A stretch of 64,000 bases of DNA from Nocardioides iriomotensis (lineage in GTDB: Bacteria > Actinomycetota > Actinomycetes > Propionibacteriales > Nocardioidaceae). Under the pieces are notes generated by a model. It ran no database searches. It saw nothing but the letters and a program-made list of their open reading frames with translations, and had not been told where the DNA came from. Below are positions 1 to 25,381 of this stretch, piece by piece. The stretch covers positions 1 through 64,000 of the forward strand of contig NZ_SDPU01000032.1 in NCBI RefSeq assembly GCF_004168035.1, given 5' to 3'. The translations under genes were made by a program, and so were the position numbers. Each line of letters opens with the position of its first letter. Position 1 is the first letter of the stretch.

Positions 1-4081
<4,081 letters not shown>

Positions 4082-4085
<4 letters not shown>

Positions 4086-4714
4086 CCGAGCGCGCGCGGA
4101 TCCTGCTCGTCGACGACCGCCAGCAGAACCTGCTGGCCCTCGAGGCGGTGCTCGGCTCGCTGGACCAGACCCTCGTCACGGCGTCCTCGGGCGAGGAGGC
4201 CCTGCGGGCGCTGCTCAAGGACGACTTCGCGTTGATCCTCCTCGATGCGCAGATGCCCGGCATGGACGGGTTCGAGACCGCGTCGCGGATCAAGGCGCGG
4301 GTGCGCACGAAGGACGTGCCGATCATCTTCCTGACCGCCGTCGACAAGGACCAGCAGCACGCCTACCGCGGCTACGCGGCCGGCGGGGCCGACTACATCT
4401 CCAAGCCGTTCGACCCCTGGGTGCTCCGCGCCAAGGTGCAGGTGTTCGTCGACCTGTGGCTGGCCGGTCAACGCCTCGCGACGCAGGCGACGCTGCTGCG
4501 GCGCCGGCTCGAGGGCGACGTCGACGTGGTCGGCGAGCTCGACGACCGGCTCGGGATGGTCGAGGAGTCGGTGGCCGCCCTGCGCGAGCAGGCCGGCAGC
4601 GCCGACCCGGTCGTCGAGACGCTGGCCCGCCGGGTGGCGGCGCTGCGGCAGGCACTCGACGTGCTCGACGACGGGCCGTCCCCGACCGGGGCGACCCGCC
4701 GCGAGTTCGGCTAG
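4082..4714 (+). CDS. Single-domain-type response regulator with coiled-coil tail
   Basis: A 210-residue protein. The receiver domain occupies about residues 5-122, with the acidic pair DD in ILLVDDR, phospho-acceptor Asp55 in LILLDAQMPG, a Thr switch (FLTA) and Lys in ISKPFD. The remaining 85 residues are Glu/Arg/Leu rich and look helical; no DNA-binding or enzymatic output domain is recognisable. The ATG at 4082 overlaps the kinase stop (ATGA), so translation is probably coupled and this is the likely partner or phosphate sink of the kinase. Its stop codon TAG shares CTAG with the stop of the convergent fadB-like gene. Confidence 0.92.
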
Positions 4715-6915
4715 GCCGGGAAGCGGCCGCCGCTCTCCGCGAGGTCGACCAGGTACGCCGGGGGCTCGAAGCGCTCGCCGTACGTCGCCGCGAGCTCACG
4801 CGCACGGGCGACGAAGGCGGTCAGACCGCCCGGGTAGCCCTGCATGAGCTGGACGGCGCCGCCGGTGTTGGCGGGGTAGCCGATGCCCATGATCGAGCCG
4901 ATGTTGGCCGCGGCCGCCGACTCGATGACGCCCTCCTCGAAGCACCGCGCGGTCTCGACCGCCTCGATGAACAGCATCCGGTCCTTGAGGTCGACGAGGT
5001 CGTCGAACAGCGGGGTGCGGTCGCTGACCGGGAAGGTGTCGGCGAGGCCCTTCCAGAGACCGAGCCGCTTGCCGGACTCGTCGTAGTCGTAGAACCCGGC
5101 GCCGCGGAGTCGGCCGGGCCGGCCGGCCTCGATCATCGTGGCCACGACCTGGTCGGCGGGGTGCGCCGGCACCTCCTGGCCCGCGGCCGCGAGGGCGTCG
5201 GCGGTGGCCTTGCGGATCTTGGCCATCAGCTCGAGGTTGAGCTCGTCGGAGAGCTGGAGGGTGCCGACCGGGTAGCCGGCCTGGGTCGCCGCGCGCTCGA
5301 CGGACACCGGGTGGTGTCCCTCGGCGAGCATCGCGAGGCCCTCGTTGACGAAGGTGCCGATCACCCGCGAGGTGTAGAAGCCGCGGGAGTCGTTGACGAC
5401 GATCGGCGTCTTCTTGATCAGCTGCACGACGTCGATCGCCTTCGCGACGGTCTCGTCGGACGTCGCCTCGCCGCGGATGATCTCGACGAGCGGCATCTTG
5501 TCGACGGGCGAGAAGAAGTGCAGGCCGACGAAGTCGGCGGGCCGGTCGACGCCCTGGGCCAGGCCGGTGATCGGCAGGGTGCTCGTGTTGGAGCAGAGCA
5601 GCGCGTCGGGGTTCACGACCTTCTGCACCTCGGCGTACACCTCGGTCTTCAGCCCGGGGTCCTCGAACACCGCCTCGATCATCAGGTCGCAGCCGGCCAG
5701 GTCGGCGTAGTCGGCGGTCGGAGTGATCCGCTCGAGGACCTCGGCTGCCTTGTCGTCGGTGAGCCTGCCGCGGGACACCTGCTTGTCGAGGACCTTCTGG
5801 GAGTAGGCCTTGCCCTTCTCGGCGTTCTCGATCGCGACGTCCTTGAGCAGCACCTGCGCGCCGGCGCGGGCGCAGACGTAGGCGATGCCGGCGCCCATCA
5901 TCCCGGCGCCGAGGACGGCGACCTTGGTGGGCACGAACCTCTCGAACCCATCGGGCCGCAGCGACCCGGAGTTGATCGCCTGCAGGTCGAACCAGAACGC
6001 CTGGATCATGTCCTTGGAGTTCTGCCCGGTGACCAGGTGCGTCAGGTACCGCGACTCGATCCGGCTCGCGGTGTCGAAGTCGACCTGGGCGCCCTCGACT
6101 GCGGCGCAGAGGATCGCCTTCGGGGCGGGGTAGTCGGCGCCCTTGAGCTGCTTGCGGAGGTTGGCCGGGAACGCCGGCAGGAACGCGGCCAGCTTCGGCG
6201 TCGACGGGGTGCCGCCGGGCATCTTGTAGCCGGGCCGGTCCCACGGCTGGGCCGCCGCCTCCTCGTCGTCGCGGTGCGCGTTCACCCAGCCCTTGGCGGC
6301 GGCGAGCAGCTCGTCGGGGTCGTGCACGAGCGCGTCGACGACGCCCTTCTCCTTGGCCTCGGCGGGCTTCATGCGCGGGCCGAGCAGCAGCACGTTCATC
6401 AGGGCGTCGGTCAGACCGAGCATCCGGACGGTCCGGGTCACGCCGCCGCCGCCGGGCAGCAGGCCGAGGGTGACCTCGGGCAGGCCGAGCTGGACGCCCG
6501 GCGTGTCCACGACGATCCGGTGGTGGCAGGCGAGCGCGATCTCGAGGCCGCCGCCGAGCGCCGTGCCGTTGATCGCGGCCACGACCGGGCGGCCGATCGT
6601 CTCCAGACGCCGCAGCTGCGCCTTGATCTCCATGCCGAGCGCGAAGACCGACCCGGCGTCCTCGGGGCCGGCCTTGACCATCTCGCGGAGGTCGCCGCCG
6701 GCGAAGAACGTCTTCTTCGCGCTGGTCACGACGACCCCGGCGACGCCGCCCTCGGCCACGTCGGCCTCGAGCCGGTCGACGGCGGCACCCATCGAGTCCT
6801 TGTAGAGCTGGTTCATCGTGTTGGCGCTCTGGGTGGGGTCGTCGAGCGTCAGGGTGACGATGCCGTCGGCGTCCTTGTCGTAGCGGACGGCGGTCTGCTG
6901 GGCGGTCTCGGTCAT
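4711..6915 (-). CDS. fadB: 3-hydroxyacyl-CoA dehydrogenase / enoyl-CoA hydratase (FadB/FadJ type)
   Basis: A 734-residue bifunctional beta-oxidation enzyme that hydrates trans-2-enoyl-CoA and oxidises 3-hydroxyacyl-CoA with NAD. The N-terminal crotonase domain (about 1-190) shows the oxyanion region GTALGGGLEIALACHH. The NAD-binding Rossmann motif LGAGMMGAGIAY lies near residue 335, followed by 3HCDH N and C domains. An upstream in-frame extension exists, but ATG 6915 has a Shine-Dalgarno AGAGGAA about 8 nt upstream and starts the conserved region, so it is preferred. It lies 87 bp downstream of the thiolase gene on the same strand; the pair forms the usual trifunctional beta-oxidation unit, like mycobacterial FadA/FadB. 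A palindromic repeat sits between the two genes. Confidence 0.96.
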   Translation of the reverse strand: MTETAQQTAVRYDKDADGIVTLTLDDPTQSANTMNQLYKDSMGAAVDRLEADVAEGGVAGVVVTSAKKTFFAGGDLREMVKAGPEDAGSVFALGMEIKAQLRRLETIGRPVVAAINGTALGGGLEIALACHHRIVVDTPGVQLGLPEVTLGLLPGGGGVTRTVRMLGLTDALMNVLLLGPRMKPAEAKEKGVVDALVHDPDELLAAAKGWVNAHRDDEEAAAQPWDRPGYKMPGGTPSTPKLAAFLPAFPANLRKQLKGADYPAPKAILCAAVEGAQVDFDTASRIESRYLTHLVTGQNSKDMIQAFWFDLQAINSGSLRPDGFERFVPTKVAVLGAGMMGAGIAYVCARAGAQVLLKDVAIENAEKGKAYSQKVLDKQVSRGRLTDDKAAEVLERITPTADYADLAGCDLMIEAVFEDPGLKTEVYAEVQKVVNPDALLCSNTSTLPITGLAQGVDRPADFVGLHFFSPVDKMPLVEIIRGEATSDETVAKAIDVVQLIKKTPIVVNDSRGFYTSRVIGTFVNEGLAMLAEGHHPVSVERAATQAGYPVGTLQLSDELNLELMAKIRKATADALAAAGQEVPAHPADQVVATMIEAGRPGRLRGAGFYDYDESGKRLGLWKGLADTFPVSDRTPLFDDLVDLKDRMLFIEAVETARCFEEGVIESAAAANIGSIMGIGYPANTGGAVQLMQGYPGGLTAFVARARELAATYGERFEPPAYLVDLAESGGRFPA

Positions 6916-6951
6916 CAGAAGTTCCTCTGCGTGGTTCGGACGAGCTCTCGA

Positions 6952-6999
6952 CGGGTGGTTCCTGAGCCTGTCGAAGGGCTCGACCACCCGGGGGGTGGT
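6952..6999. repeat. Intergenic palindromic repeat containing CCTGAGCCTGTCGAAG
   Basis: Between fadA and fadB. CGGGTGGT at 6952-6959 pairs with ACCACCCG at 6983-6990. The same right arm can pair alternatively with GGGTGGT at 6993-6999, giving mutually exclusive hairpins. The loop carries the 16-mer CCTGAGCCTGTCGAAG (reverse complement CTTCGACAGGCTCAGG), which I remember as a dispersed intergenic word in actinobacteria and sphingomonads. It may attenuate or stabilise the fadA-fadB transcript. Confidence 0.6.
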
Positions 7000-7002
7000 C
7001 GG

Positions 7003-8235
7003 TCAGGCCCGCTCGACGATGGTCGCGATGCCCATGCCGCCGCCGACGCAGAGCGTGGCGAGGCCGTAGCGCAGGTCGCGGCGCTCCAGCTCGTCGACGA
7101 GGGTGCCGAGGATCATGGCGCCGGTCGCGCCGAGCGGGTGGCCCATGGCGATCGCGCCGCCGTTGACGTTGACCTTGTCGTGGGACAGGTCGAGGTCGCG
7201 CATGAACCGCATCGCGACCGCCGCGAACGCCTCGTTGATCTCGAACAGGTCGATGTCGTCGACGGAGAGCCCGGCCTTGGCCAGCGCCTTGCGCGAGGCC
7301 GGTGCGGGGCCGGTGAGCATGATCGTCGGGTCGGCGCCGGACACGGCCGTGGCGACGATGCGGGCGCGCGGGGTGAGGCCGAGCTCCCGGCCGACCTGCT
7401 CGGTGCCGATGGCGACGAGGGCGGCGCCGTCGACGATGCCGGAGGAGTTGCCGGCGTGGTGGACGTGGTCGATGCGCTCGACCCAGTGGTACTTCTCCAG
7501 CGCGACGGAGTCGAAGCCGCCCTGGTCGCCGATGGCAGCGAACGACGACGGGAGCGACGCGAGGGACTCGACGGTCGTGCCGGGCCGGATGAACTCGTCG
7601 TGGTCGAGGACCGTGAGGCCGTTGAGGTCCTTGACCGGCACGATCGAGCGGTCGAAGTAGCCGTTGGCCTGCGCCTTGGCGGCCCGGGCCTGCGACTCGG
7701 CCGCGAACGCGTCGACGTCCGCGCGGCCGTAGCCCTCCAACGTGGCGATCAGGTCTGCGCCGATGCCCTGCGGGACGAACGACGTACCGATGGCGGTGGC
7801 GGGGTCCATCGCCCAGGCGCCGCCGTCGGTGCCCATCGGGACCCGGGACATCGACTCGACGCCGCCGGCGAGGATCAGGTCCTCGAAGCCGGAGCGCACC
7901 CGCTGGGCGGCCTGGTTGACGGCCTCAAGTCCGGAGGCGCAGAAGCGGTTGAGCTGCACGCCGGCGACGGTCTCGGGGTAGCCGGCCGCGAGCGCGGCGG
8001 CCTTGGCGATGTCGCCGCCCTGGTCACCGATCGGCGTGACGACGCCGAGCACGACGTCGTCGACGCGGGCCGGGTCGAGCGACGGGTTGCGCTCCTTGAC
8101 CTCGTCGAGCAGGCCGACGACCAGGTCGATGGGCTTCACCTCGTGGAGGGAACCCGTCTTCTTGCCGCGTCCGCGCGGGGTGCGGAGGGCGTCGTACACG
8201 AACGCCTGAGGTCCCTGGTCGGTGCTGAGCGCCAT
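7003..8235 (-). CDS. fadA: Acetyl-CoA C-acyltransferase (3-ketoacyl-CoA thiolase)
   Basis: A 410-residue thiolase, standard length. The acylated nucleophile Cys is in [11 protein letters not shown] near residue 99, the catalytic His in GHPLGATG near 365, and the second Cys in [10 protein letters not shown] near 395. It performs thiolytic cleavage of 3-ketoacyl-CoA, the last step of the beta-oxidation cycle. ATG 8235 is preceded by GAGAGGA at good spacing. It is the first gene of a fadA-fadB unit and is divergent from a MerR-family gene across 109 bp that hold a candidate operator. Antisense frames through this gene are composition artefacts. Confidence 0.96.
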
Positions 8236-8344: not shown

Positions 8345-9076
8345 ATGTCGCTGCCGCAGACCGCCACCGAGGCCGGTGAGCTGATCTCGCTCGAGGAGCT
8401 GACCCGGCGCACGGGCATCAGCGTGCGCAACATCCGCTTCTACACGACGCGCGGCCTGGTGCCGGCGCCGATCCGCAAGGGCCGGTCCGGCTACTACTCG
8501 AGCGACCACCTCGCGCGGCTCGAGCTGGTCCGTGAGCTGCAGGCGCACGGGTTCACGCTGGCCGCGATCGAGCGGTACGTCGCCAAGATCCCGGACGACG
8601 CGTCGCCCGAGACGATCGCACTGCACCGCACGCTGCTGGCGCCGTGGATGGCCGAGCTGCCGGAGACGCTCACGCGCAAGGAGCTGACGAAGCGGGCCGG
8701 CCGCGCGCTGTCCGACGACGACCTGGACACGCTCAACGCACTGGGCATCGTGTTCCCCACGAAGCAGGGCCGCTACCAGGTCGCGCTGGCGCACCTCTCC
8801 GTCGGCGTCAGCCTGCTCGACCTCGGCATGCCGACCGACGCCGCGCTGGCGGCGCAGGACATCTTCCTGGCCCACGGCCGGGCGATCGCCGACGAGCTGA
8901 CCGACCTGTTCAAGACCAAGGTCTGGCCGGCGTACGTCGAGGGCGGCGCGACGCCCGACCAGATCCGCGAGGTCGTGGAGCGGTTCAAGCCGGTGACGGT
9001 GGCCGCGCTGGTGGCGGCCTACGAGTCGGCCGTCAACGAGACCAAGCGCGAGACCGTCGCGCGCCGCGCGCGATGA
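8345..9076 (+). CDS. MerR family transcriptional regulator
   Basis: A 243-residue regulator. The N-terminal winged helix-turn-helix (about residues 14-80) has the MerR signature LTRRTGISVRNIRFYTTRG and the wing YYSSDHLARLELV. The C-terminal 150 residues show no metal-binding cysteines, so an organic or acyl-CoA effector is more likely than a metal. The ATG is preceded by AAAGG. The gene is divergent from fadA-fadB and overlaps the alpha-methylacyl-CoA racemase gene by ATGA. The context suggests control of fatty-acid or branched acyl-CoA breakdown; this is inference. Confidence 0.9.
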   Translation: MSLPQTATEAGELISLEELTRRTGISVRNIRFYTTRGLVPAPIRKGRSGYYSSDHLARLELVRELQAHGFTLAAIERYVAKIPDDASPETIALHRTLLAPWMAELPETLTRKELTKRAGRALSDDDLDTLNALGIVFPTKQGRYQVALAHLSVGVSLLDLGMPTDAALAAQDIFLAHGRAIADELTDLFKTKVWPAYVEGGATPDQIREVVERFKPVTVAALVAAYESAVNETKRETVARRAR

Positions 9077-10218
9077 CCACCGGGGCCGGCCCGCTCGCCG
9101 GCGTCCGGGTCGTCGAGCTGGCCGGGATCGGCCCGGGCCCGCACGCCGCGATGCTGCTCGCCGACCTCGGCGCCGACGTGATCCGCATCGAGCGTCCTGG
9201 TGGTGCGACGTCGGCCGGCCCGCGCGAGTCGGACCTGCTGACCCGGGGCCGGCCCAGCGTCGCGCTCGACCTCAAGCACCCCGACGCCGTCGTGACCGTG
9301 CTGACCCTGGTGGAGCGGGCCGACGTGTTCCTCGAGGGGATGCGGCCCGGTGCGGCCGAGCGTGCCGGGCTCGGGCCCGACGAGCTGCTCGCCCGCAACC
9401 CGCGGCTGGTCTACGGCCGGATGACGGGCTGGGGGCAGGACGGCCCGTGGGCGTCGGTGGCCGGGCACGACCTCAACTACATCGGCGTCGCCGGCGTGCT
9501 GCACGGCCTGGGCCAGTCGGCGGACCGGCCGCAGTTCCCGGCCAACCTGCTCGGCGACTTCGGCGGCGGCTCGACGTACCTCGTCATCGGCGTGCTGGCC
9601 GCGCTGCTCGAGGCACGCACCTCCGGGCAGGGGCAGGTGGTCGACGCCGCGATCGTCGACGGCGCCGCGCACCTCGGCACGATGCTCGCCGGGATGCTCG
9701 CCGGCGGGGTCCAGCACGAGCGCCGCGTCGCCGGGCTGCTCGACGGCGGGGCGCCGTTCTACGACGTGTACGAGACCGCCGACGGCCGGCACCTGTCAGT
9801 CGGCCCGCTGGAGCCGCAGTTCTACGCCGAGCTGGTCCGGCTGCTCGGTCTCGACGACGCCGCCCCCGACCAGTGGGACGTCGCCCGGTGGGGCGAGCTG
9901 CGCGAGCGACTGACAGCGCGGTTCAAGGAACGCACCCAGGCCGAGTGGGCCGAGGTGTTCGCCGGCACGGACGCCTGCGTTGCGCCGGTGCTGCCGGTGT
10001 CGGAGGCCGCTCGGCACCCGCACCTCGCCGCGCGCGGCACCTGGGTCGAGCGGGACGGGCTCACCCAGCCCGCCCCGGCGCCACGGTTCTCCCGCACCCC
10101 GGCCGCGCTCGGCGCCGGGCCCAGCGTCGCCGGCGGCTCGACCCGGGAGGCGCTCACCGCCTGGGGGATCGAGGACGTCGACGCCCTGATCGACTCCGGG
10201 GCGGCCGTCCAGGGCTGA
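9073..10218 (+). CDS. Alpha-methylacyl-CoA racemase (CaiB/BaiF CoA-transferase family III)
   Basis: 381 residues, the normal length for the AMACR branch of family III CoA transferases. The N-terminus has ELAGIGPGPHAAMLLADLGAD. The catalytic pair of AMACR is present: His in AGHDLNY near residue 132 and Asp in GDFGGGS near residue 162. These features favour racemisation of 2-methylacyl-CoA thioesters, which lets methyl-branched chains enter beta-oxidation, over true CoA transfer. Its ATG overlaps the MerR stop (ATGA), implying coupled translation with its probable regulator. A CoA-transferase role cannot be excluded. Confidence 0.9.
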   Translation: MTTGAGPLAGVRVVELAGIGPGPHAAMLLADLGADVIRIERPGGATSAGPRESDLLTRGRPSVALDLKHPDAVVTVLTLVERADVFLEGMRPGAAERAGLGPDELLARNPRLVYGRMTGWGQDGPWASVAGHDLNYIGVAGVLHGLGQSADRPQFPANLLGDFGGGSTYLVIGVLAALLEARTSGQGQVVDAAIVDGAAHLGTMLAGMLAGGVQHERRVAGLLDGGAPFYDVYETADGRHLSVGPLEPQFYAELVRLLGLDDAAPDQWDVARWGELRERLTARFKERTQAEWAEVFAGTDACVAPVLPVSEAARHPHLAARGTWVERDGLTQPAPAPRFSRTPAALGAGPSVAGGSTREALTAWGIEDVDALIDSGAAVQG

Positions 10219-10234
10219 ACAGCCGCGGAATGGC

Positions 10235-10240
10235 TACTGT
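10235..10240 (+). promoter_or_regulatory. Candidate -10 element of the prenyl-polyketide operon
   Basis: TACTGT lies 32 bp upstream of the preferred GTG start at 10272 and just after the racemase stop at 10218. No convincing -35 was found. It would let the UbiA-to-idi operon be transcribed separately from the racemase. Confidence 0.4.
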
Positions 10241-10271
10241 CGGTCCCACGAACGAGGGACGGGACCGAGAC

Positions 10272-11096
10272 GTGGCAGCAGCCGGCACACGAGCACCATC
10301 GCCCCGCGGTCCGCTCGCCCTGCTCGCCGCCACCCACCCGGGCCCGGCGCTCGCTGTCACCGCGGTGGCCGGACTGCTGGCCGCCGCCGAGCAGGCCCCG
10401 CCCGACCGGGTCGCGCTGGTCGCTGCCGCCGTCCTGGCGGGACAGCTGTCGATCGGCTGGTCCAACGACCTCCTCGACCTCGCCCGGGACCGGCAGGTCG
10501 GCCGGCTGGACAAGCCGCTCGCGACCGGAGCCGTGGACGCCCGGTCGGTGCGCGTCGCGTGCGCCGTGGCGGTCCTGCTGGTCGTCCCGCTGTCCCTCGC
10601 GTGCGGGGTGGCGGCCGGCCTCGTGCACCTGGGGTGCGTGGCCTGCGGCTGGGCGTACAACCTCGGCCTGAAGGCGACGGCCTGGTCGTGGCTCCCCTAC
10701 GCCCTGGCGTTCGGCGGTCTGCCGGTCTTCGTGAGCCTGGCCGCCGGGGTGCAGCCGGCGTGGTGGGCGGCCGCCGCGGGCGCGCTCCTCGGCGTCGGTG
10801 CGCACCTGGTCAACACGCTGCCCGACCTCGCCGACGACCGCGCGACCGGCGTGCTCGGGCTCCCGCACCGGATCGGCGCCGGGCCGACGCGGGTCCTCGC
10901 GGTCGCCGTGCTGCTGGCGGCGTCGGTGCTGCTCGCCACGGCCGCACCCGACCTGCGGACGGCCGGACGGGTCGTGGTGCTCGCCGCGGCGGCCCTGCTG
11001 TCGCTCGTCGCGCTGCGCTCACAGGGACGCCGGCCGTTCCAGGCCGTCGTCCTGCTCGCCGTGGTGGACGTCGTGGCGCTGGTGGTGGGGCGATGA
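10272..11096 (+). CDS. UbiA family prenyltransferase
   Basis: A 274-residue integral membrane protein with about eight or nine hydrophobic segments. Both aspartate-rich motifs of the superfamily are visible: NDLLDLARDRQVGRLDKP near residues 58-75 and the second motif DLADDRATG near 183. These bind Mg2+ and prenyl diphosphate during prenylation of an aromatic or other acceptor. GTG 10272 follows GAGGGACGGGA and is preferred; an in-frame ATG at 10230 would add 14 unconserved residues and overlap the candidate -10. It starts a six-gene overlapping operon with a type III PKS, so the acceptor is probably the polyketide-derived phenol or quinol. Confidence 0.9.
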   Translation: MAAAGTRAPSPRGPLALLAATHPGPALAVTAVAGLLAAAEQAPPDRVALVAAAVLAGQLSIGWSNDLLDLARDRQVGRLDKPLATGAVDARSVRVACAVAVLLVVPLSLACGVAAGLVHLGCVACGWAYNLGLKATAWSWLPYALAFGGLPVFVSLAAGVQPAWWAAAAGALLGVGAHLVNTLPDLADDRATGVLGLPHRIGAGPTRVLAVAVLLAASVLLATAAPDLRTAGRVVVLAAAALLSLVALRSQGRRPFQAVVLLAVVDVVALVVGR

Positions 11097-12256
11097 GGAC
11101 GGCTGCTCACACGTGGGACCTCGTGGTCGTCGGAGCCGGTCCGGCGGGCAGTGCGGCGGCGCTTTCCGCGCTGCACCGCGCGCCCGACCTGCGCGTCCTG
11201 CTCGTCGACCGCGCCGACTTCCCTCGCGACAAGGCCTGTGGCGACGGCGTCGCGCCGCACGTGCTCGACGTCCTCGCGACCGTCGGTGTGCACGACCTGC
11301 TCGACGACCTCCCGTCCCTTCGACGGCTGCGCATCTCCCAGGGCGGGCACGTCGCCGACCGGCGGCTCGCCCGACCGGTGTGGGTCGTGCCGCGCACCGA
11401 CCTCGACGCCCGCCTGGTCGCGCGCGCCGCAGCGGCCGGAGCCCGGCGCGAGCGGCACCGCGTGCGCAGCCTCGACGAGCTGGACGCCCAGGTGGTCGTC
11501 GGGGCCGACGGCGTGCACAGCGTCGTCCGTGGCGAGCTCCTCGGGGGACGGCCCGGACGGCGCGCCGTCGCGATCCGCGGCTACACCCCGACGCCGCCAG
11601 AGCTGGCCGGCCTCCAGGTGATCCGGTACGGCGACCGCCGGCAGCCGTCGTACGCCTGGTGCTTCGACCGCGGCGACGGTCTGGCCAACGTCGGCTACGG
11701 CGAGCTGGTCGACGGCGGGGACGACCTGACCCGCTCGCGCCTGCTGGGCGAGCTCGAGCGGCTGCTGCCCGGCACCGTCGCGGACGGGCGCGCGTGGCGG
11801 GCCGCCCACCTGCCGCTGTCCGGCCTGCCCCGTCCGCACGCCGCCGGGCGGGTGCTGCTGGCCGGCGACGCCGCCCACCTGGTCAACCCGATGACGGGTG
11901 AGGGGATCTACCACGCCGTGGCCACCGGGGTGCTCGCCGGGCGCGCGGCCGCGGACGCGCTGACCGCCGGCCGTCCCGAGTCTGCGGGGCTCGCCTACAC
12001 GCGGGCCGTCCGTCGGCTTCTCGACCGTCACCAGCGGCACACCGCCCTGACCGCCCGGCTGTCCGCCGTGCCCCGGGTCGTCGCCGCCGCGATCGACGCG
12101 GCGTCGCGCCACCAGGGCATCTTCGACGACCTCGTCGAGATCGGCCTCGGCCCGGGCACCATCTCGCCCCGGCTGGTCGGCGGCCTCGCGCACGCCCTCG
12201 CCCGGCCCGCACCACTGACCGGCCCGACCGATGTGGAGTCGTCATGGAGATCCTGA
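11093..12256 (+). CDS. Geranylgeranyl reductase-like FAD oxidoreductase
   Basis: 387 residues. The N-terminal FAD motif is [16 protein letters not shown], followed by the family motif [15 protein letters not shown], a central [19 protein letters not shown] resembling the GGR substrate-site motif, and the C-terminal FAD motif [19 protein letters not shown]. Such enzymes saturate double bonds of prenyl chains. Its ATG overlaps the UbiA stop and its end overlaps the PKS start by 13 nt. Next to a prenyltransferase it probably reduces the attached or free prenyl group, as in dihydrogeranyl products; a hydroxylase role is a weaker alternative. Confidence 0.85.
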
Positions 12257-13308
12257 CCGTCCGCGGTGCGCTGCCCCCGCACCGCTACCCGCAGGGCGAG
12301 ATCACCGACGCGTTCGCCGACGTGATCGCGCGGACCAGCCTCGACGAGGGCCTGCTCCGCCGGCTGCACGGCAACGCCGGCGTGCAGACCCGGCACCTGG
12401 TCCTGCCCCTGGAGGAGTACGGCGGGCTCCGCGACTTCGGCCAGGCCAACGACCTGTTCATCGAGCACGCCGTGCGGCTCGGGTCGGAGGCGCTGGTGGA
12501 CGCGCTCAAGGCGGCCGGGCTCACCCCCGGCGACGTCGACCTGGTCGTCTCCACCACGGTGACCGGCCTGGCGGTCCCGTCGCTCGACGCGCGGATCGCC
12601 GCGGCGGTCGGGCTGCGACCCGACGTGAAGCGGGTCCCGCTGTTCGGGCTCGGCTGCGTCGCCGGGGCGGCCGGGATCGCGCGTCTGCACGACTACCTGG
12701 TCGGCCACCCCGACCACGTCGCCGTGCTCCTGTCGGTCGAGCTGTGCTCGCTCACCGTGCAGCGCGACGACACGTCCGTGCCGAACCTCGTCGCCAGCGG
12801 TCTCTTCGGGGACGGCGCCGCGGCCGTCGTCGCCCGGGGCGGGCCCCCGTCGGGCACGACGGGAGGCGTCGAGGTGCTGGCCTCACGCAGCCGGCTGTAC
12901 CCCGACTCCGAGCGCACGATGGGCTGGGACATCGCGTCGTCGGGCCTGAAGATCGTGCTCGACGCCTCCGTGCCCGACCTGGTGCGGCGCTACCTCCGCG
13001 AGGACGTCGAGCAGTTCCTGGCCGGGCACGGGCTCGACGTCGGCGATGTCGGCTGGTGGGCCTGCCACCCCGGCGGCCCCAAGGTGATCGAGGCGATCGA
13101 GGACTCGCTCGGCCTGCCGCGCGAGGCGGTCCAGCTGACCTGGGACTCGCTCGCCCGGATCGGCAACCTGTCGTCCTCGTCGGTGCTGCACGTCCTCGAG
13201 GACACGCTGCGCGACCGGCCGCCGGCACCCGGGTCGTGGGGGGTCGTGATGGCGATGGGCCCGGGGTTCTGCTCCGAGCTCGTGCTGGCCCGCGGGGTCG
13301 CGGCATGA
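12244..13308 (+). CDS. Type III polyketide synthase (chalcone/stilbene synthase fold)
   Basis: 354 residues, normal for the family. The catalytic triad is complete: Cys138 in [12 protein letters not shown], His275 in WACHPGGPK and Asn308 in [10 protein letters not shown]. The enzyme condenses malonyl-type CoA units onto an acyl-CoA starter without a carrier protein and cyclises the chain. The neighbours (ICMT-like methyltransferase and flavin monooxygenase) match those of alkylresorcinol/alkylquinone synthases such as Srs of Streptomyces griseus, so a long-chain acyl starter is likely. ATG 12244 lies inside the end of the preceding gene, and its own stop overlaps the next ATG. Confidence 0.94.
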
Positions 13309-13853
13309 GCATGACGTCTCTCGCGTTCTTCACGGTCGTCGTCGGACTCGTCGCGCTGGAGCGGCTGGCCGAGCTCGTCGTGTCCACCCGCAACGCCCGG
13401 TGGAGCCTGGCGCAGGGCGGCCGCGAGACCGGTCAGGGCCACTACGTCGTGATGGTCGTGCTGCACACGGGGCTGCTGGCCGGCGCGCTGGTCGAGGCCT
13501 GGTGGCGGCGGCCCGCCGTACCGCTGGCGCTGGCGGCCTCGATGCTCGCCCTCGTGCTCGCCTCGCAGGCGCTGCGCTGGTGGTGCATCGCGACGCTCGG
13601 CCGGCAGTGGAACACCCGGGTGATCGTCGTCCCGGGCCTGCCGCTGGTCCACGCCGGTCCCTACCGGTGGCTGCGGCACCCCAACTACGTCGCCGTGGTC
13701 GTCGAGGGGTTCGCGCTGCCGCTCGTGCACGCCGCGTGGTGGACCGCGGCGGTGTTCACCGTCGCCAACGCTGTCCTGCTCACCGTGCGCATCCGGGTCG
13801 AGGAGCGTGCGCTCGACGGCCTCGACGGGGAGGTCACGTGCGCGACCTCCTGA
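13305..13853 (+). CDS. Isoprenylcysteine carboxyl methyltransferase (ICMT) family protein
   Basis: A 182-residue protein with four or five membrane segments. The C-terminal SAM-binding signature is [18 protein letters not shown] followed by RIRVEERAL. In type III PKS operons, proteins of this family O-methylate resorcinols or quinols (SrsB-like) and do not act on prenylated cysteines. The ATG at 13305 overlaps the PKS stop (ATGA) and the gene runs 16 nt into the next one. Role in this pathway is inferred from context; the family call is firm. Confidence 0.9.
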
Positions 13854-14860
13854 TCGCCGGCGGCGGGCCGGTCGGTCTCGCCACCGCGTTGTACGCCGCC
13901 CGGGCCGGGCTCGACGTGGCCGTCCGCGAGCCGCGCGCGGGCAGCATCGACAAGGCCTGCGGCGAGGGGCTGATGCCCGGGGCGCTGGCCGCACTGCGCG
14001 ACCTCGGCGTCGACCCGGCGGGCCACGAGCTCCGCGGCATCCGGTACGTCGACCGCTCCCGCGAGGTCGAGGCGGCGTTCCGGCACGGTCCGGGCCGTGG
14101 CGTGCGGCGCACGGTGCTGCACGACGCCCTGCGCGCGGCGGTCGACGCGGCCGGCGTACCGGTCGAGCAGCGGCCGGTGCGCACGGTCGGGCTGCGCGCC
14201 GACCACGTCAGCGTCGACGGCGAACCGGTGCGCCACCTGGTCGCCGCCGACGGCCTGCACTCCCCGCTGCGCCGGATGCTCGGCCTCGACGTCACCGCCA
14301 CGACCACGCGCCGGTACGGACTGCGCTGCCACGTCGACGTCGCGCCCTGGACGGCGTTCGTCGAGGTGCACTGGTCGCCGGTCGGCGAGGCCTACGTGAC
14401 GCCGGTGGCCGACGACCGGGTGGGGGTGGCCGTGCTGAGCACGGTGCGCCGGCCCCTGCCCGACCTGCTGTCGTCGTTCCCGCGGCTGCTCGCGCACCTG
14501 GACGACGCGCCGGTCGGCGCGGTCCGCGGAGCCGGGCCGCTGCGTCAGCGGGCGCGGCGGCGGGTGGTCGGCCGGGTGCTCCTGGTCGGCGACGCCGCCG
14601 GGTACGTCGACGCGCTGACCGGCGAGGGCATCGCCGTCGGGCTCGCCCAGGCCCGGGCGGCGGTCGAGGCCGTCCGGTCCGGCCGGCCGGCCGGCTACGA
14701 GGCCGCGTGGCAGCGCATCACCCGCCGGCACGACCTGATGACGGCGAGCCTGCTGGCGGCGACCCGGCGGCCGGCGCTGCGCCGGCGCATCGTCCCGGCG
14801 GCGGCAGCGCTGCCGCGCGCCTTCGACGCGGCCGTCAACGCGCTGGCGAGCCCGGCATGA
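13838..14860 (+). CDS. FAD-dependent monooxygenase of the type III PKS operon
   Basis: 340 residues. FAD motif [19 protein letters not shown] at the N-terminus, KACGEGLMPGALAAL near residue 45, and the second FAD motif VLLVGDAAGYVDALTGEGI near 255. It is likely an aromatic hydroxylase (SrsC-like) turning an alkylresorcinol into a hydroquinone/quinone. The GTG start at 13838 fixes the frame: the FAD motif starts six residues later, leaving no room for a later start. It overlaps the ICMT gene by 16 nt and the idi gene by ATGA. It resembles the other flavoprotein in this operon, which may reflect old duplication within the GGR/UbiH-like superfamily. Confidence 0.87.
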   Translation: MRDLLIAGGGPVGLATALYAARAGLDVAVREPRAGSIDKACGEGLMPGALAALRDLGVDPAGHELRGIRYVDRSREVEAAFRHGPGRGVRRTVLHDALRAAVDAAGVPVEQRPVRTVGLRADHVSVDGEPVRHLVAADGLHSPLRRMLGLDVTATTTRRYGLRCHVDVAPWTAFVEVHWSPVGEAYVTPVADDRVGVAVLSTVRRPLPDLLSSFPRLLAHLDDAPVGAVRGAGPLRQRARRRVVGRVLLVGDAAGYVDALTGEGIAVGLAQARAAVEAVRSGRPAGYEAAWQRITRRHDLMTASLLAATRRPALRRRIVPAAAALPRAFDAAVNALASPA

Positions 14861-15435
14861 ACGGTCCGGTCGAGGAGGTCGTGCTGCTCGACGAGGACGG
14901 GCGCGCCGTCGGGACGTCACCGAAGGGGTCCGTGCACCACGCCGCGACCCCGCTGCACCTGGCGTTCTCGTGCTACGTCTTCGACGGCGACCGGCTGCTG
15001 GTGACACGCCGGGCCCTGCACAAGCCGACGTGGCCCGGTGCCTGGACCAACTCCGTGTGCGGCCATCCCGCCCCGGGCGAGGCGTTGGACGACGCCGTAC
15101 GCCGCCGGGTCCGCCAGGAGCTCGGGATCGGGCTCGGCGAGCTGCGGCTCGTGCTGCCCACGTTCCGCTACCGCGCCGTGATGCCCGACGGGACCGTCGA
15201 GAACGAGATGTGCCCGGTGCTCGTCGCGTCCACCACCTCGGGGGACGCCGTACGGCCGGACCCGGAGGAGGTCGCGGACGCGGTCTGGGAGCCGTGGCCG
15301 GCGTTCCGGTCCGACGTGCTCGACGGCAGCCGCGAGGTCAGTCCGTGGTGCCGCGAGCAGGTCGCCGCGCTGCCGGCCGAGCCGTGGACGGCCGCTGCCG
15401 CCGACCGATCGACCCTGCCGGAGGCGCTGCGCTGA
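14857..15435 (+). CDS. idi: Isopentenyl-diphosphate delta-isomerase, type I
   Basis: 192 residues with the Nudix-like IDI-1 fold. The catalytic Cys is in TNSVCGHP and the catalytic Glu in ENEMCPV; the region GEALDDAVRRRVRQELG is the Nudix-like helix. It interconverts IPP and DMAPP, the starter for prenyl diphosphate synthesis. It is the last gene of the operon (ATGA overlap), placing DMAPP supply beside the UbiA prenyltransferase. No prenyl diphosphate synthase is present in the window. The gene ends 4 bp from a convergent gene. Confidence 0.95.
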   Translation: MNGPVEEVVLLDEDGRAVGTSPKGSVHHAATPLHLAFSCYVFDGDRLLVTRRALHKPTWPGAWTNSVCGHPAPGEALDDAVRRRVRQELGIGLGELRLVLPTFRYRAVMPDGTVENEMCPVLVASTTSGDAVRPDPEEVADAVWEPWPAFRSDVLDGSREVSPWCREQVAALPAEPWTAAAADRSTLPEALR

Positions 15436-15439
15436 CGGC

Positions 15440-15898
15440 TCAGTGGTGCTGCATCTGCTCGTGCACCTTGGCGTGCCCGAGGCCGCGGCCGATCATCCAG
15501 TGGTTGACCGGGACGGTGACGACGAAGGCGACGAGCAGCGAGAACACGAGCGCGGCCCAGAAGATCCAGTTCGCCAGCCCGGCGTGCAAAGCGCCGGGCA
15601 CGGTGACCATCACCGCGTTGTCGACGACCTCCATCACCGCGATCGAGACGGTGTCGGCGGCCAGCGCGACCCGGACCGCCGCCGCGAACGGGAGCCCGGC
15701 GCGCAGCACCGAGCTCATCGTGAGCAGGTAGCCGAAGAAGAACGCGAGCACCACGGCCAGCGCCACGCTCGGCCACGTCGACCAGCCCCACCAGGTGGCG
15801 AGCACCATGCCGAGCACCTCGCCGATCGCACAGCCGGTCAGGCAGTGCAGGGTCGCGCTGATCGCCGTGCGCCAGGCTGAGTCGGTCCGGGTGTCCAT
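15440..15898 (-). CDS. DUF4396 membrane protein with His/Met-rich C-terminus
   Basis: A 152-residue polytopic protein with four predicted membrane helices. It shows the DUF4396 signatures HCLTGCAIGEVLGMV near the N-terminus, ADTVSIAVMEVVDNAVM in the middle and VPVNHWMIGRGLGHA near the end. The tail HAKVHEQMQHH offers several possible metal ligands. A TTG at 15907 in frame would add three residues; ATG 15898 is preferred. Directly upstream lies a palindrome of the CsoR type, like the two boxes in front of csoR at 55.0 kb, so the gene is a candidate copper-stress gene. Biochemical function of the family is unknown to me. Confidence 0.85.
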   Translation of the reverse strand: MDTRTDSAWRTAISATLHCLTGCAIGEVLGMVLATWWGWSTWPSVALAVVLAFFFGYLLTMSSVLRAGLPFAAAVRVALAADTVSIAVMEVVDNAVMVTVPGALHAGLANWIFWAALVFSLLVAFVVTVPVNHWMIGRGLGHAKVHEQMQHH

Positions 15899-15909
15899 GC
15901 CCGCCAAAC

Positions 15910-23380: not shown

Positions 23381-25381
23381 ATGTCGTCCGCGCCGCCCCG
23401 CCCGCTCCTGCCTGCCCGCACGCTCCTGCGCCTGCGCCGACTCGCGGGGCTGGTCGCCGCGCTGGTCGTGCTGGTGCCGGCCGCCGCGAACGCCGTACCC
23501 ATCGAGGACTTCTCGGGCTACCAGCCGCAGACGACGTGCAGCCCCGACCCCAAGCCGGGGACCGTCGCGCTGTCGAAGTGGCTGATGAGCAAGTACCCGG
23601 GCAGCGGCTCCAGTGGCATCTCCCGCGCGTGCGGCGCCAGCGGGGTGTCGGAGCACAAGGAGGGCCGGGCCTTCGACTGGCGGGTCAGCGCCACCTCGGC
23701 GCGCGACCGCGGCTACGTCAAGGACTTCTTCGCGACGATCTTCGCCCCCGACAAGGACGGCAACCAGGCCGCGCTCGCCCGCCGCATGGGCATCATGTAC
23801 CTGATCTGGGACGACCACATCTACGCGTCGTACCGCGGCTTCGAGAAGCGCGCCTACACCCACTCCGGCTGCCGGACGAAGAAGTCCTGCTCCCCCACGC
23901 TGCGGCACCGCGACCACGTGCACATCTCGCTGTCGCGCGCGGGCGGTGCCGGCGAGACCAGCTGGTACCACCGCAACGACGCGGGCTGGCAGTCGCCGGT
24001 CACACCGACGCCGACGCCGACCACCCCGACGCCGCCCCCGAGCACCCCGCCGCCGGTCGGCGACCCGACGCCGATCCCGGTCGGCCCGCCGGTCGAGGGC
24101 GAGCTGCGGTTCACCAAGAAGAAGCAGCTCGCGCGCGTCGCGGTGCCGCTCGACAAGTCGACGTACACGTCGAAGTGGAAGCTCCGCAAGGGCAAGCAGT
24201 ACAAGATCACCGTCGCCGGCCTCGTCGGGTACGGCGCGCCGGACCAGGTCGGCGACGCCAACTGCGTCTGGTCGCCCACGACGCGCTCGTGGCTGCACAG
24301 CGGCAACGGCGTGAAGGTCAACGGTGACCTGCTGTTCGGCCGGACCTGCACGGGCGACCACGTCTACGCGACGACGTACGTCCCGACGAAGTCCAAGCCG
24401 ATGCGGGTGAAGCTGGCCTCGACCACGGCCGCCGGGACCGGCCGGCTGGTGCTGACGGTGTCGAGGAAGGAGACCGACGTCTCCGCGAAGCTGCCGACCT
24501 ACCCGGCGCTGGCCGCGGCCCCGGCCGTGCTGCCCTCGAGCCGCGGCAGCCTCAACACGCTCGCCGAGACCGTGCAGGTGCCGGCCGACGCAACGACTCC
24601 GGTGCTGACCACGCAGGAGGTCGAGGCCGGCGCCCGCTACCGGATGACCGTCTCGGGCGTCGCGGACCTCGGTGGCGGCGTGCAGACCGACGGCCAGTGC
24701 ATCGGGGTCGGCGGCGCCTGGTACCAGGCTGCCTCACTCGACCTGCGGTCGCCGGGCGACGACCACGGCAACCTCTACGTCAACGGCTACCCGTTCGGCG
24801 GCGACCCGACGACCGACTGCGCGGCGCACTCGCACGTCATGGAGTTCACCGCCGCCGAGACCCGGCAGCTGCAGCTCGCCGTGTGGGACCCGTTCCCGGT
24901 CAGCGACAACAGCGGCGCCCTCACGGTGACGGTGCAGCGGCTGTCGTCGCTCGCCTCTCCCCAGAAGGCCCGGGGCGAGTCGCCGCAGAGCGGCGGCATC
25001 TACTGGTCGATGCCCGTCGACACGTTCGCGGTCAACCTCGCGAGCCCGGAGGGCACCGTCTCCAACATGCGGCTGCGCAAGGGCGAGCGGGTCACGCTCG
25101 TCGTGTCGGGCGCGTTCACCTCGCACGGCGTCACCGCCGACGCGACCTGCGTCAACACCGGCGCCGGCTGGGTGCCGCGCGACCCGGGCCTGGCCCTGGA
25201 GCAGGACCCGCTCGAGCTGTGGGTCGACGGCGTCGCGCGGCCGTGGGGCGCGTGCAACGACGCGCACACCTACTCGACGTCGTACGTCGTGGAGAAGAGC
25301 GGCCCGATCCGCCTCGCGGTCATGGACCTCGACTTCCGCGACAACGCCGGCAGCCTCGAGGTCGCGCTCACCCGCGGCTAG
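23381..25381 (+). CDS. Secreted M15/ARB_07466-like peptidase with three beta modules
   Basis: 666 residues. An Arg-rich n-region and hydrophobic signal peptide (residues 1-38, AAANAV site) precede a catalytic region (about 45-195) with EHKEGRAFDW and HRDHVHISL, the His/Asp pattern of D-Ala-D-Ala carboxypeptidase-like zinc folds. A Thr/Pro linker (208-240) leads to three tandem modules of about 125 residues (241-368, 390-528, 540-666), each with a conserved Cys pair and modules B and C ending in a DNSGALTV/DNAGSLEV motif reminiscent of LecA-type lectin folds. Likely a peptidoglycan- or surface-binding hydrolase outside the cell. It ends one base before a convergent MFS gene. Confidence 0.82.
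   Translation: MSSAPPRPLLPARTLLRLRRLAGLVAALVVLVPAAANAVPIEDFSGYQPQTTCSPDPKPGTVALSKWLMSKYPGSGSSGISRACGASGVSEHKEGRAFDWRVSATSARDRGYVKDFFATIFAPDKDGNQAALARRMGIMYLIWDDHIYASYRGFEKRAYTHSGCRTKKSCSPTLRHRDHVHISLSRAGGAGETSWYHRNDAGWQSPVTPTPTPTTPTPPPSTPPPVGDPTPIPVGPPVEGELRFTKKKQLARVAVPLDKSTYTSKWKLRKGKQYKITVAGLVGYGAPDQVGDANCVWSPTTRSWLHSGNGVKVNGDLLFGRTCTGDHVYATTYVPTKSKPMRVKLASTTAAGTGRLVLTVSRKETDVSAKLPTYPALAAAPAVLPSSRGSLNTLAETVQVPADATTPVLTTQEVEAGARYRMTVSGVADLGGGVQTDGQCIGVGGAWYQAASLDLRSPGDDHGNLYVNGYPFGGDPTTDCAAHSHVMEFTAAETRQLQLAVWDPFPVSDNSGALTVTVQRLSSLASPQKARGESPQSGGIYWSMPVDTFAVNLASPEGTVSNMRLRKGERVTLVVSGAFTSHGVTADATCVNTGAGWVPRDPGLALEQDPLELWVDGVARPWGACNDAHTYSTSYVVEKSGPIRLAVMDLDFRDNAGSLEVALTRG

Follow-up and report, generated by a model that had tools for sequence, protein, structure and literature searches.

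The 64,000-nt stretch of DNA analysed here (the window; positions 1-64,000 of the forward strand of Nocardioides iriomotensis contig NZ_SDPU01000032.1, GCF_004168035.1) contains a six-gene operon that probably acts as one transcription unit in the synthesis of a prenylated phenolic lipid, an alkyl-O-(dihydro)prenyl-methoxyhydroquinone with two tails. The genes lie on the + strand between 10230 or 10272 and 15435 and are chained head to tail in the order UbiA-family prenyltransferase (UbiA), geranylgeranyl-reductase (GGR)-type flavoprotein, type III polyketide synthase (PKS), ICMT-type methyltransferase (ICMT), flavin adenine dinucleotide (FAD)-dependent hydroxylase and isopentenyl-diphosphate isomerase (IDI). 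In agreement with an original prediction made from this DNA, which had named the six families and their overlap, all six open reading frames (ORFs) are present with profile matches to each family, five of five junctions overlap (Table 1), and idi is inside the operon, overlapping the hydroxylase gene. The predicted gene set and downstream end of the span 10272-15435 also stand. Its start may instead lie 42 bases upstream, at the first of the two possible in-frame starts of UbiA, ATG 10230 (288 residues) and GTG 10272 (274 residues). A scan for promoters and terminators, in which about none were expected, found none of either. Gene content, overlap, conservation, PKS clade membership, a reductase signature and genome-level co-occurrence are directly established and form the basis of the argument below.

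The PKS is the sole PF00195 match in the 4.7-Mb genome of this organism. Its catalytic residues C138, H275 and N308 are intact, as had been predicted, and are invariant across 180 aligned PKS rows (163 different). A tree of these rows was built with one PKS per locus, no stop codons and at least 300 residues, some genomes being represented twice; Mycobacterium tuberculosis PKS11, its genome group and Streptomyces NBC_01237 are among the rows, and SrsA and PkqA themselves are outside the tree. Support values are from the SH-like approximate likelihood ratio test (SH-aLRT) only, and the program flagged long branches at the root. Two types of cassette, srs-type and agq-type, split into separate clades with 99% support each. 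The operon PKS falls in a 39-row clade (100% SH-aLRT) in which all rows have ICMT and FAD hydroxylase neighbours, and both of these genes lie directly downstream of the PKS gene in the operon. On this placement, the PKS-ICMT-hydroxylase core is of the srsABC/pkqABC type, which agrees with the srsABC-like core proposed originally.

One observation weighs against a resorcinol-forming PKS and would fit an alkylpyrone synthase like M. tuberculosis PKS11. By sequence, PKS11, a pyrone synthase, is the nearest solved protein to the operon PKS (E 2e-125). Trp281 of ArsB is said in the cited passages to decide between resorcinol and pyrone formation (PMC9927152, PMC6274091); the marker was unusable here, and PKS11 too has a Trp at the third position ahead of its catalytic His. 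In the tree, however, PKS11 belongs to a 6-row subgroup (98% SH-aLRT), whereas the operon PKS sits in the separate 39-row clade with ICMT and hydroxylase throughout. A pyrone product is made less likely by this placement and by the operon context, and we regard the alkylpyrone assignment as highly improbable. Both ICMT and hydroxylase are also carried by four rows of the sister group of the PKS11 subgroup. One locus of the group nesting PKS11 (L141, f7/g36) has the PKS, ICMT and FAD enzyme, with no UbiA, GGR or idi in 16 kb; in the other five rows of the PKS11 subgroup, ICMT and hydroxylase were undetected in the DNA examined, which for four of them included a flank of merely 1.5 kb.

The srs-type core is conserved in its arrangement among relatives. 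In a set of 58 related genomes, the genome of N. iriomotensis included, the PKS was matched in 39 (E <= 0.001), and in 30 of these 39 strongly, that is with at least 57% identity. The order PKS-ICMT-FAD enzyme is nearly constant around the 29 strong relatives' PKS loci (L027-L055). Among the 56 loci with enough flank, counting that of N. iriomotensis, all 56 have ICMT beside the PKS and 53 have the FAD hydroxylase, and the gene order is therefore not due to chance. This count mixes loci picked by PKS match and by UbiA match, with 7 of 63 loci dropped (six too close to the end of the stretch and one without PKS). At the 23 of 29 PKS-chosen relatives' loci that had enough flank, the hydroxylase was found in 21, UbiA in 17, IDI in 10 and GGR in 7. 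In a phylum-wide draw, 45 of 396 genomes had a PKS match at E <= 1e-60. UbiA lies at most 300 bases from the PKS in five of five Streptomyces-like genomes (f6/g35) of this draw that have such a PKS, four of them divergent, and the PKS of Streptomyces NBC_01237 groups with three of the five in the tree.

Several further observations concern the distribution of the PKS and its neighbours. UbiA is beside the srs-type core in the Streptomyces-like L133-L136, L145 and G180; the srs literature seen treats the lipids as unprenylated. In another class (f21/g58; L143, L144, L056-L058), the PKS nests inside the clade of the family of N. iriomotensis, which suggests that it may have been acquired by horizontal transfer; in two of the three genomes read in this group, UbiA and GGR are beside the PKS. 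In G003:C1:4472801-4473860 and G139:C4:280833-281975, the match to the PKS gene is split in two, perhaps as a result of a frameshift or insertion, either real or sequencing-derived. A plasmid collection holds two relatives of >57% identity, with no gene annotation there.

The two flavoproteins of the operon differ in their relation to geranylgeranyl reductases. Against the TIGR02032 model (cut-off 158.8), the first scores 159.6 bits and the second 106.4, above and below the cut-off, respectively. As described in the cited passages, geranylgeranyl reductases have a YxWxFP-x7-8-GxG signature and an active-site cysteine (PMC6309074; PMC12004948). The corresponding sequence in the first flavoprotein, YAWCFD-x8-GYG, keeps Y, W, F and GxG. 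A search that allowed 5-12 residues between F and GxG, and was thus looser than the published motif, found Y-x-W-x-F...G-x-G in 24 of 25 homologues of the first flavoprotein versus 0 of 58 of the second; these sets exclude the operon's own two proteins, of which the first matched and the second did not. The best solved relative of the first is digeranylgeranylglycerophospholipid reductase 3oz2 (E 1.4e-14). For the second, 3oz2 ties with ChlB4, which we take to be a halogenase. The second flavoprotein also occurs in clusters such as L141 and L230-L233, where the stretch read shows no UbiA and no GGR, as expected of a hydroxylase.

The distribution of the first flavoprotein follows that of the PKS. 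A close GGR homologue, defined by at least 55% identity (23 of the 30 genomes matching at E <= 1e-15), is present in 23 of 30 PKS genomes versus 0 of 28 PKS-less genomes (Fisher p 2.4e-10, kinship uncorrected) and, within family f1, in 15 of 20 genomes with PKS versus 0 of 17 without (Fisher p 3.1e-6, kinship uncorrected). Since 12 of the 23 close GGRs are on another contig or far from the PKS (that of G015 may be linked across a contig end), this association is not mere linkage. The GGR of G038 is in two pieces. In Pseudonocardia oceani and a Pseudonocardiales metagenome-assembled genome (L164 3249-4328, L169 3305-4345), a GGR that is 46% identical and has the full YxWxFP signature is next to both a UbiA and a PKS of the agq type; the pairing of UbiA and reductase therefore recurs with the other cassette.

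Other observations weigh against assigning a prenyl reductase to this pathway. The TIGR02032 cut-off is passed only narrowly, and the P of the signature is replaced by D, a change shared by nearly all kin listed (P is retained in two Pseudonocardia-type homologues). The cysteine motif does not discriminate, being found in 23 of 25 homologues of the first flavoprotein and 57 of 58 of the hydroxylase (KACGDG in GGR and KACGEG in hydroxylase homologues). Moreover, a close GGR is missing in 7 of 30 PKS genomes (G001, G002, G003, G006, G032, G052 and G057; G001 is 86% and G006 81% complete), and 7 of 28 PKS-less genomes have weaker GGR-like proteins (36-40% identity), taken here as other members of the superfamily. 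Because of the GGR-type signature, in its variant form, and the genome-level co-occurrence with the PKS, even where the two are unlinked, the first flavoprotein is probably the prenyl reductase of this pathway. The prenylation module that had been predicted within the operon is supported.

The core may alternatively yield an ordinary unprenylated polyketide quinone, with UbiA, GGR and IDI serving another isoprenoid, such as a partly saturated menaquinone. In keeping with this, the stretches read at L141 and L230-L233 contain PKS, ICMT and hydroxylase and lack both UbiA and GGR, and UbiA homologues are common in the class, N. iriomotensis itself having a second one elsewhere in its genome. Of the 23 relatives' loci with enough flank, 6 have no UbiA within the stretch read, and this and the genomes missing GGR mean that prenylation is not universal for this core; at L027, GGR is present and no UbiA was detected in 16 kb. 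These points also count against a prenylated product. The close GGR nevertheless tracks the PKS, in the proportions given above, and in N. iriomotensis all six genes overlap. Menaquinone, by contrast, is to be expected in all these relatives, with PKS or without, which also tells against the reading. We consider an unprenylated product very unlikely, and a prenylated lipid remains the reading preferred here.

The operon UbiA was placed in a tree of 77 rows, where it falls in a 32-row clade (support 96/94). Of these rows, 30 are from PKS-ICMT clusters and two are one orphan counted twice. The agq-type UbiAs and three orphans form a clade of their own (98/92), which has no srs-type row and leaves the operon UbiA outside; in pairwise comparison, the operon UbiA shares 50-53% identity with two Frankia UbiAs of the agq type. 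Two results on UbiA count against the preferred reading. Twelve srs-type UbiA rows (f3 and f6 genomes) are placed elsewhere with weak support, and the srs-type UbiAs thus do not form one supported clade. Furthermore, 161 of the 296 genomes of the class have a UbiA homologue at E <= 1e-12, and UbiA alone is therefore no pathway marker. The second homologue of N. iriomotensis, on contig C10 (locus L125, 8886-9623), is ~51% identical over part of its length; it adjoins carD, with an IspD-like ORF ~1 kb beyond. A carD gene is also near five agq-type clusters (L229, presumed Actinoplanes missouriensis; L245, L186, L191 and L171), and losA is likewise described as near carD, then ispD and ispF (PMC7587189).

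The original prediction had likened the operon to the agq locus of A. missouriensis, an organism that is described as making 6-alkyl-4-O-dihydrogeranyl-2-methoxyhydroquinones (PMC3569393). The reference for agq was an 8,773,466-bp genome presumed to be that of A. missouriensis (PKS loci L226/L229). It has one type III PKS match at E <= 1e-20, and around this PKS are an acyl-coenzyme A (CoA)-dehydrogenase-fold protein, a Methyltransf_11 (class I S-adenosylmethionine, SAM) protein and UbiA; within 18 kb there is no listed match to the GGR, ICMT, FAD enzyme or IDI of the operon. The L226/L229 PKS is in the other main clade of the PKS tree, and an agq-type PKS of Frankia QA3 is 34% identical to the operon PKS. 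This second type of cassette, in Frankia, Lentzea, Pseudonocardia and Micromonosporaceae, mostly consists of UbiA, a class I SAM methyltransferase, an acyl-CoA-dehydrogenase-fold protein and PKS, and by its gene content agq very probably belongs to it. The second-type PKS was found in 276 of 294 genomes of the family of G249 at E <= 1e-80, and in a contig scan with a Frankia query 22 of 43 loci were from Frankia and allies or Lentzea.

That the operon is a direct homologue of agq would account for the same general steps in both (PKS, methyltransferase, flavoprotein and UbiA). Three of the four agq-type enzymes, however, come from different families or clades: the PKS is of another clade, a class I SAM methyltransferase stands in place of ICMT, and the flavoprotein has the acyl-CoA-dehydrogenase fold in place of FAD_binding_3. 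Homology of the two loci was rejected on these grounds, provided that the 8,773,466-bp genome is that of A. missouriensis 431 and that its one type III PKS match is AgqA, and we regard it as extremely improbable. The UbiA-family prenyltransferase alone is homologous, and the probable logic of the product is common to both. The original match to agq may hold for the chemistry and is not supported as gene kinship.

The following pathway to a prenylated lipid is proposed. The PKS would load a fatty acyl-CoA and extend it three times to a 5-alkylresorcinol, one hydroxyl of which would be O-methylated by the ICMT-type enzyme. The second FAD enzyme would then hydroxylate the ring, giving an alkyl-methoxyhydroquinone that could be oxidised to the quinone. 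IDI would provide dimethylallyl diphosphate (DMAPP), from which enzymes encoded elsewhere in the genome would build a short prenyl diphosphate; the operon itself encodes no polyprenyl-diphosphate synthase, a point against the proposal, and no search for one was made outside it. The GGR-type flavoprotein would saturate at least one prenyl double bond, before or after transfer. UbiA would attach the prenyl chain, most likely to a phenolic oxygen, as is cited for AgqD, an O-prenyltransferase that acts on an alkyl-methoxyhydroquinone (PMC3227686). The end product would be a membrane lipid with two tails. With a saturated C15 alkyl chain and an O-dihydrogeranyl group, its calculated formula would be C32H56O3 (488.423), or a mass of 486.407 if the GGR did not act; the exact masses listed for the agq compounds (486.41, 500.42, 556.49 and 570.50; PMC7692728) fit one unsaturation more than this example. 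We infer each of these chemical steps and their order, as well as the cellular role, the prenyl length and O- over C-prenylation. That N. iriomotensis has no known product of this kind weighs against the proposal.

In this pathway, the position of the prenyl group matters for function. O-prenylation would block oxidation of the quinol to the quinone and C-prenylation would not, and the linkage therefore decides whether the product could carry electrons. The two are indistinguishable from sequence here. In respiratory quinones, the prenyl chains are C-linked. UbiA may C-prenylate the ring, as housekeeping UbiA enzymes do, and the product could then still cycle between quinol and quinone. It would resemble ubiquinone, being a polyketide quinone with one alkyl tail and one prenyl tail that is partly saturated, and could carry electrons as an alternate to other quinones. 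A match of the GGR to the model of the menaquinone reductase MenJ, far under its cut-off (95 of 700 bits), fits this, and the core is common to pkqABC, the products of which have been reported from mycobacteria and Streptomyces as alternate electron carriers (PMC9927152; PMC8730385). Set against this is the activity cited for AgqD, a characterised member of the UbiA family (PMC3227686), and we judge C-prenylation to be unlikely, O-prenylation being preferred.

Known systems, compared here by passages of the cited papers, contain parts of the operon. In Streptomyces griseus, srsA, srsB and srsC are described as stilbene synthase, ICMT and monooxygenase genes (PMC6669644). This alkylresorcinol locus (BGC0000282 per PMC9962454, which also gives 100% similarity of a Kribbella type III PKS region to the alkylresorcinol entry) likewise has PKS, ICMT and FAD monooxygenase in one operon, to which the N. 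iriomotensis operon adds UbiA, the GGR-type reductase and idi. The pkqABC genes of Mycobacterium smegmatis encode a PKS, methyltransferase and oxidoreductase that make polyketide quinones (PMC9927152; PMC8730385); with their counterpart in Streptomyces sp. MNU77, they share with the operon the order of these three genes and methoxy alkyl (hydro)quinone products, but form a three-gene operon as described, without prenyltransferase, reductase or idi (PMC9927152). The MNU77 polyketide quinones are reported to have a C-methyl group on the ring, and complementation of M. smegmatis delta-pkqA has been carried out for Streptomyces MNU77 (PMC9927152). The loseolamycin (los) locus of Micromonospora endolithica also has a UbiA gene beside a type III PKS cassette, but in the order UbiA, methyltransferase, acyl-CoA dehydrogenase, PKS, which is the agq-type cassette (PMC7587189 Table 1). 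In Gephyromycinifex aptenodytis, UbiA is beside stilbene synthase, ICMT and FAD oxygenase; the cluster is interpreted there as belonging to angucycline biosynthesis, and GGR and idi are unmentioned in the passages cited (PMC8779670). UbiA beside an srs-type core is thus already in print. In the open-licence literature, no description was found of this six-gene operon, or of a reductase or idi with UbiA and an srs-type core, and no paper on such a product was found there, consistent with the original view that the product is probably undescribed.

Genes that flank the operon are also listed in Table 1. The FadJ-like, thiolase, CoA-transferase, MerR and DUF4396 genes were compared with 106 loci (>8 kb, E 1e-10; 59 srs-type clusters, the rest agq-type, orphan-UbiA or other, with the N. 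iriomotensis locus as positive control) and were matched at none. They were accordingly dropped as candidate members of the pathway, and the acyl-CoA enzymes among them are probably neighbours by chance; the original suggestion that genes next door supply acyl-CoA finds no support from conservation. The MerR regulator gene overlaps the CoA-transferase gene, and the pair ends 11 bases before the earliest UbiA start, which makes a longer transcript taking in these two genes ahead of the operon possible. The idi product is its genome's sole match to itself at E <= 1e-20. Across genomes it is only weakly associated with the PKS (22 of 30 versus 10 of 28 genomes, p 0.008), and this was not leaned on. 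Elsewhere, the window encodes a large hybrid histidine kinase (48-4085) with five HAMP stretches, GAF, HisKA, HATPase and three response-regulator receiver stretches, and a 666-residue ORF on the + strand (23381-25381) that has 98% GC at third positions and no Pfam match.

Table 1 Genes of the operon and its flanks, in window coordinates.
Feature	Position	Strand	Evidence	Predicted role	Overlap with next gene
UbiA-family membrane prenyltransferase	10230..11096	+	PF01040 E 1.1e-22; NDxxDxxxD motif at residue 79	prenyl attachment to phenolic core	4 bases, 11093-11096
Geranylgeranyl-reductase-family (GGR) flavoprotein	11093..12256	+	FAD_binding_3; TIGR02032 159.6 bits	prenyl (dihydro) reductase	13 bases, 12244-12256
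Type III PKS, srs/pkq-type clade	12244..13308	+	PF00195 + PF02797 (chalcone/stilbene synthase N, C domains)	alkylresorcinol synthase	4 bases, 13305-13308
ICMT-type membrane methyltransferase (SrsB/PkqB-like)	13305..13853	+	PF04140 E 2.5e-29	O-methylation of resorcinol	16 bases, 13838-13853
FAD-dependent hydroxylase (SrsC/PkqC-like)	13838..14860	+	PF01494 (FAD_binding_3) E 2.2e-11	ring hydroxylation to methoxyhydroquinone	4 bases, 14857-14860
Type 1 isopentenyl-diphosphate isomerase (idi)	14857..15435	+	NF002995 238 bits (cut-off 127), TIGR02150	DMAPP supply for prenyl donor	
FadJ-like	4711-6987				
Thiolase	7003-8235				
MerR regulator	8345-9076				
CoA-transferase (family III)	9073-10218				
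DUF4396	15440-15907				

The operon is real and conserved, joining a known core to a predicted prenylation and prenyl-reduction module, and is a fuller version of pathways known in related soil bacteria. Its GGR, unmatched within 18 kb of the agq-type locus, is a candidate for a prenyl reductase dedicated to such a pathway. A prenyltransferase that has been overlooked may often accompany the srs core of Streptomyces-like genomes, which is known for phenolic lipids without prenyl groups. A broader reading, put forward as speculation and judged unlikely, is that in many actinobacteria the srs/pkq core provides the first part of a longer pathway to a two-tailed quinol/quinone that is prenylated and partly saturated, a class of membrane redox lipids apart from menaquinone and simple polyketide quinones. 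Such a pathway would have been put together on two occasions, the methylation and hydroxylation enzymes of the srs-type pathway (as in N. iriomotensis) being non-homologous to those of the agq-type one (in Micromonosporaceae and Frankia). Both would have included a UbiA and isoprenoid-supply genes close by: idi within the N. iriomotensis operon, and ispD and ispF a few genes away in the published los locus (PMC7587189). O-prenylation could act as a switch by which the quinol is kept from taking part in electron transport. As the core is that of polyketide quinones, for which a role as alternate electron carriers has been reported in mycobacteria and Streptomyces (PMC9927152), the product of the operon would bear on whether prenylated polyketide quinols are used by bacteria for respiration or to protect the membrane.

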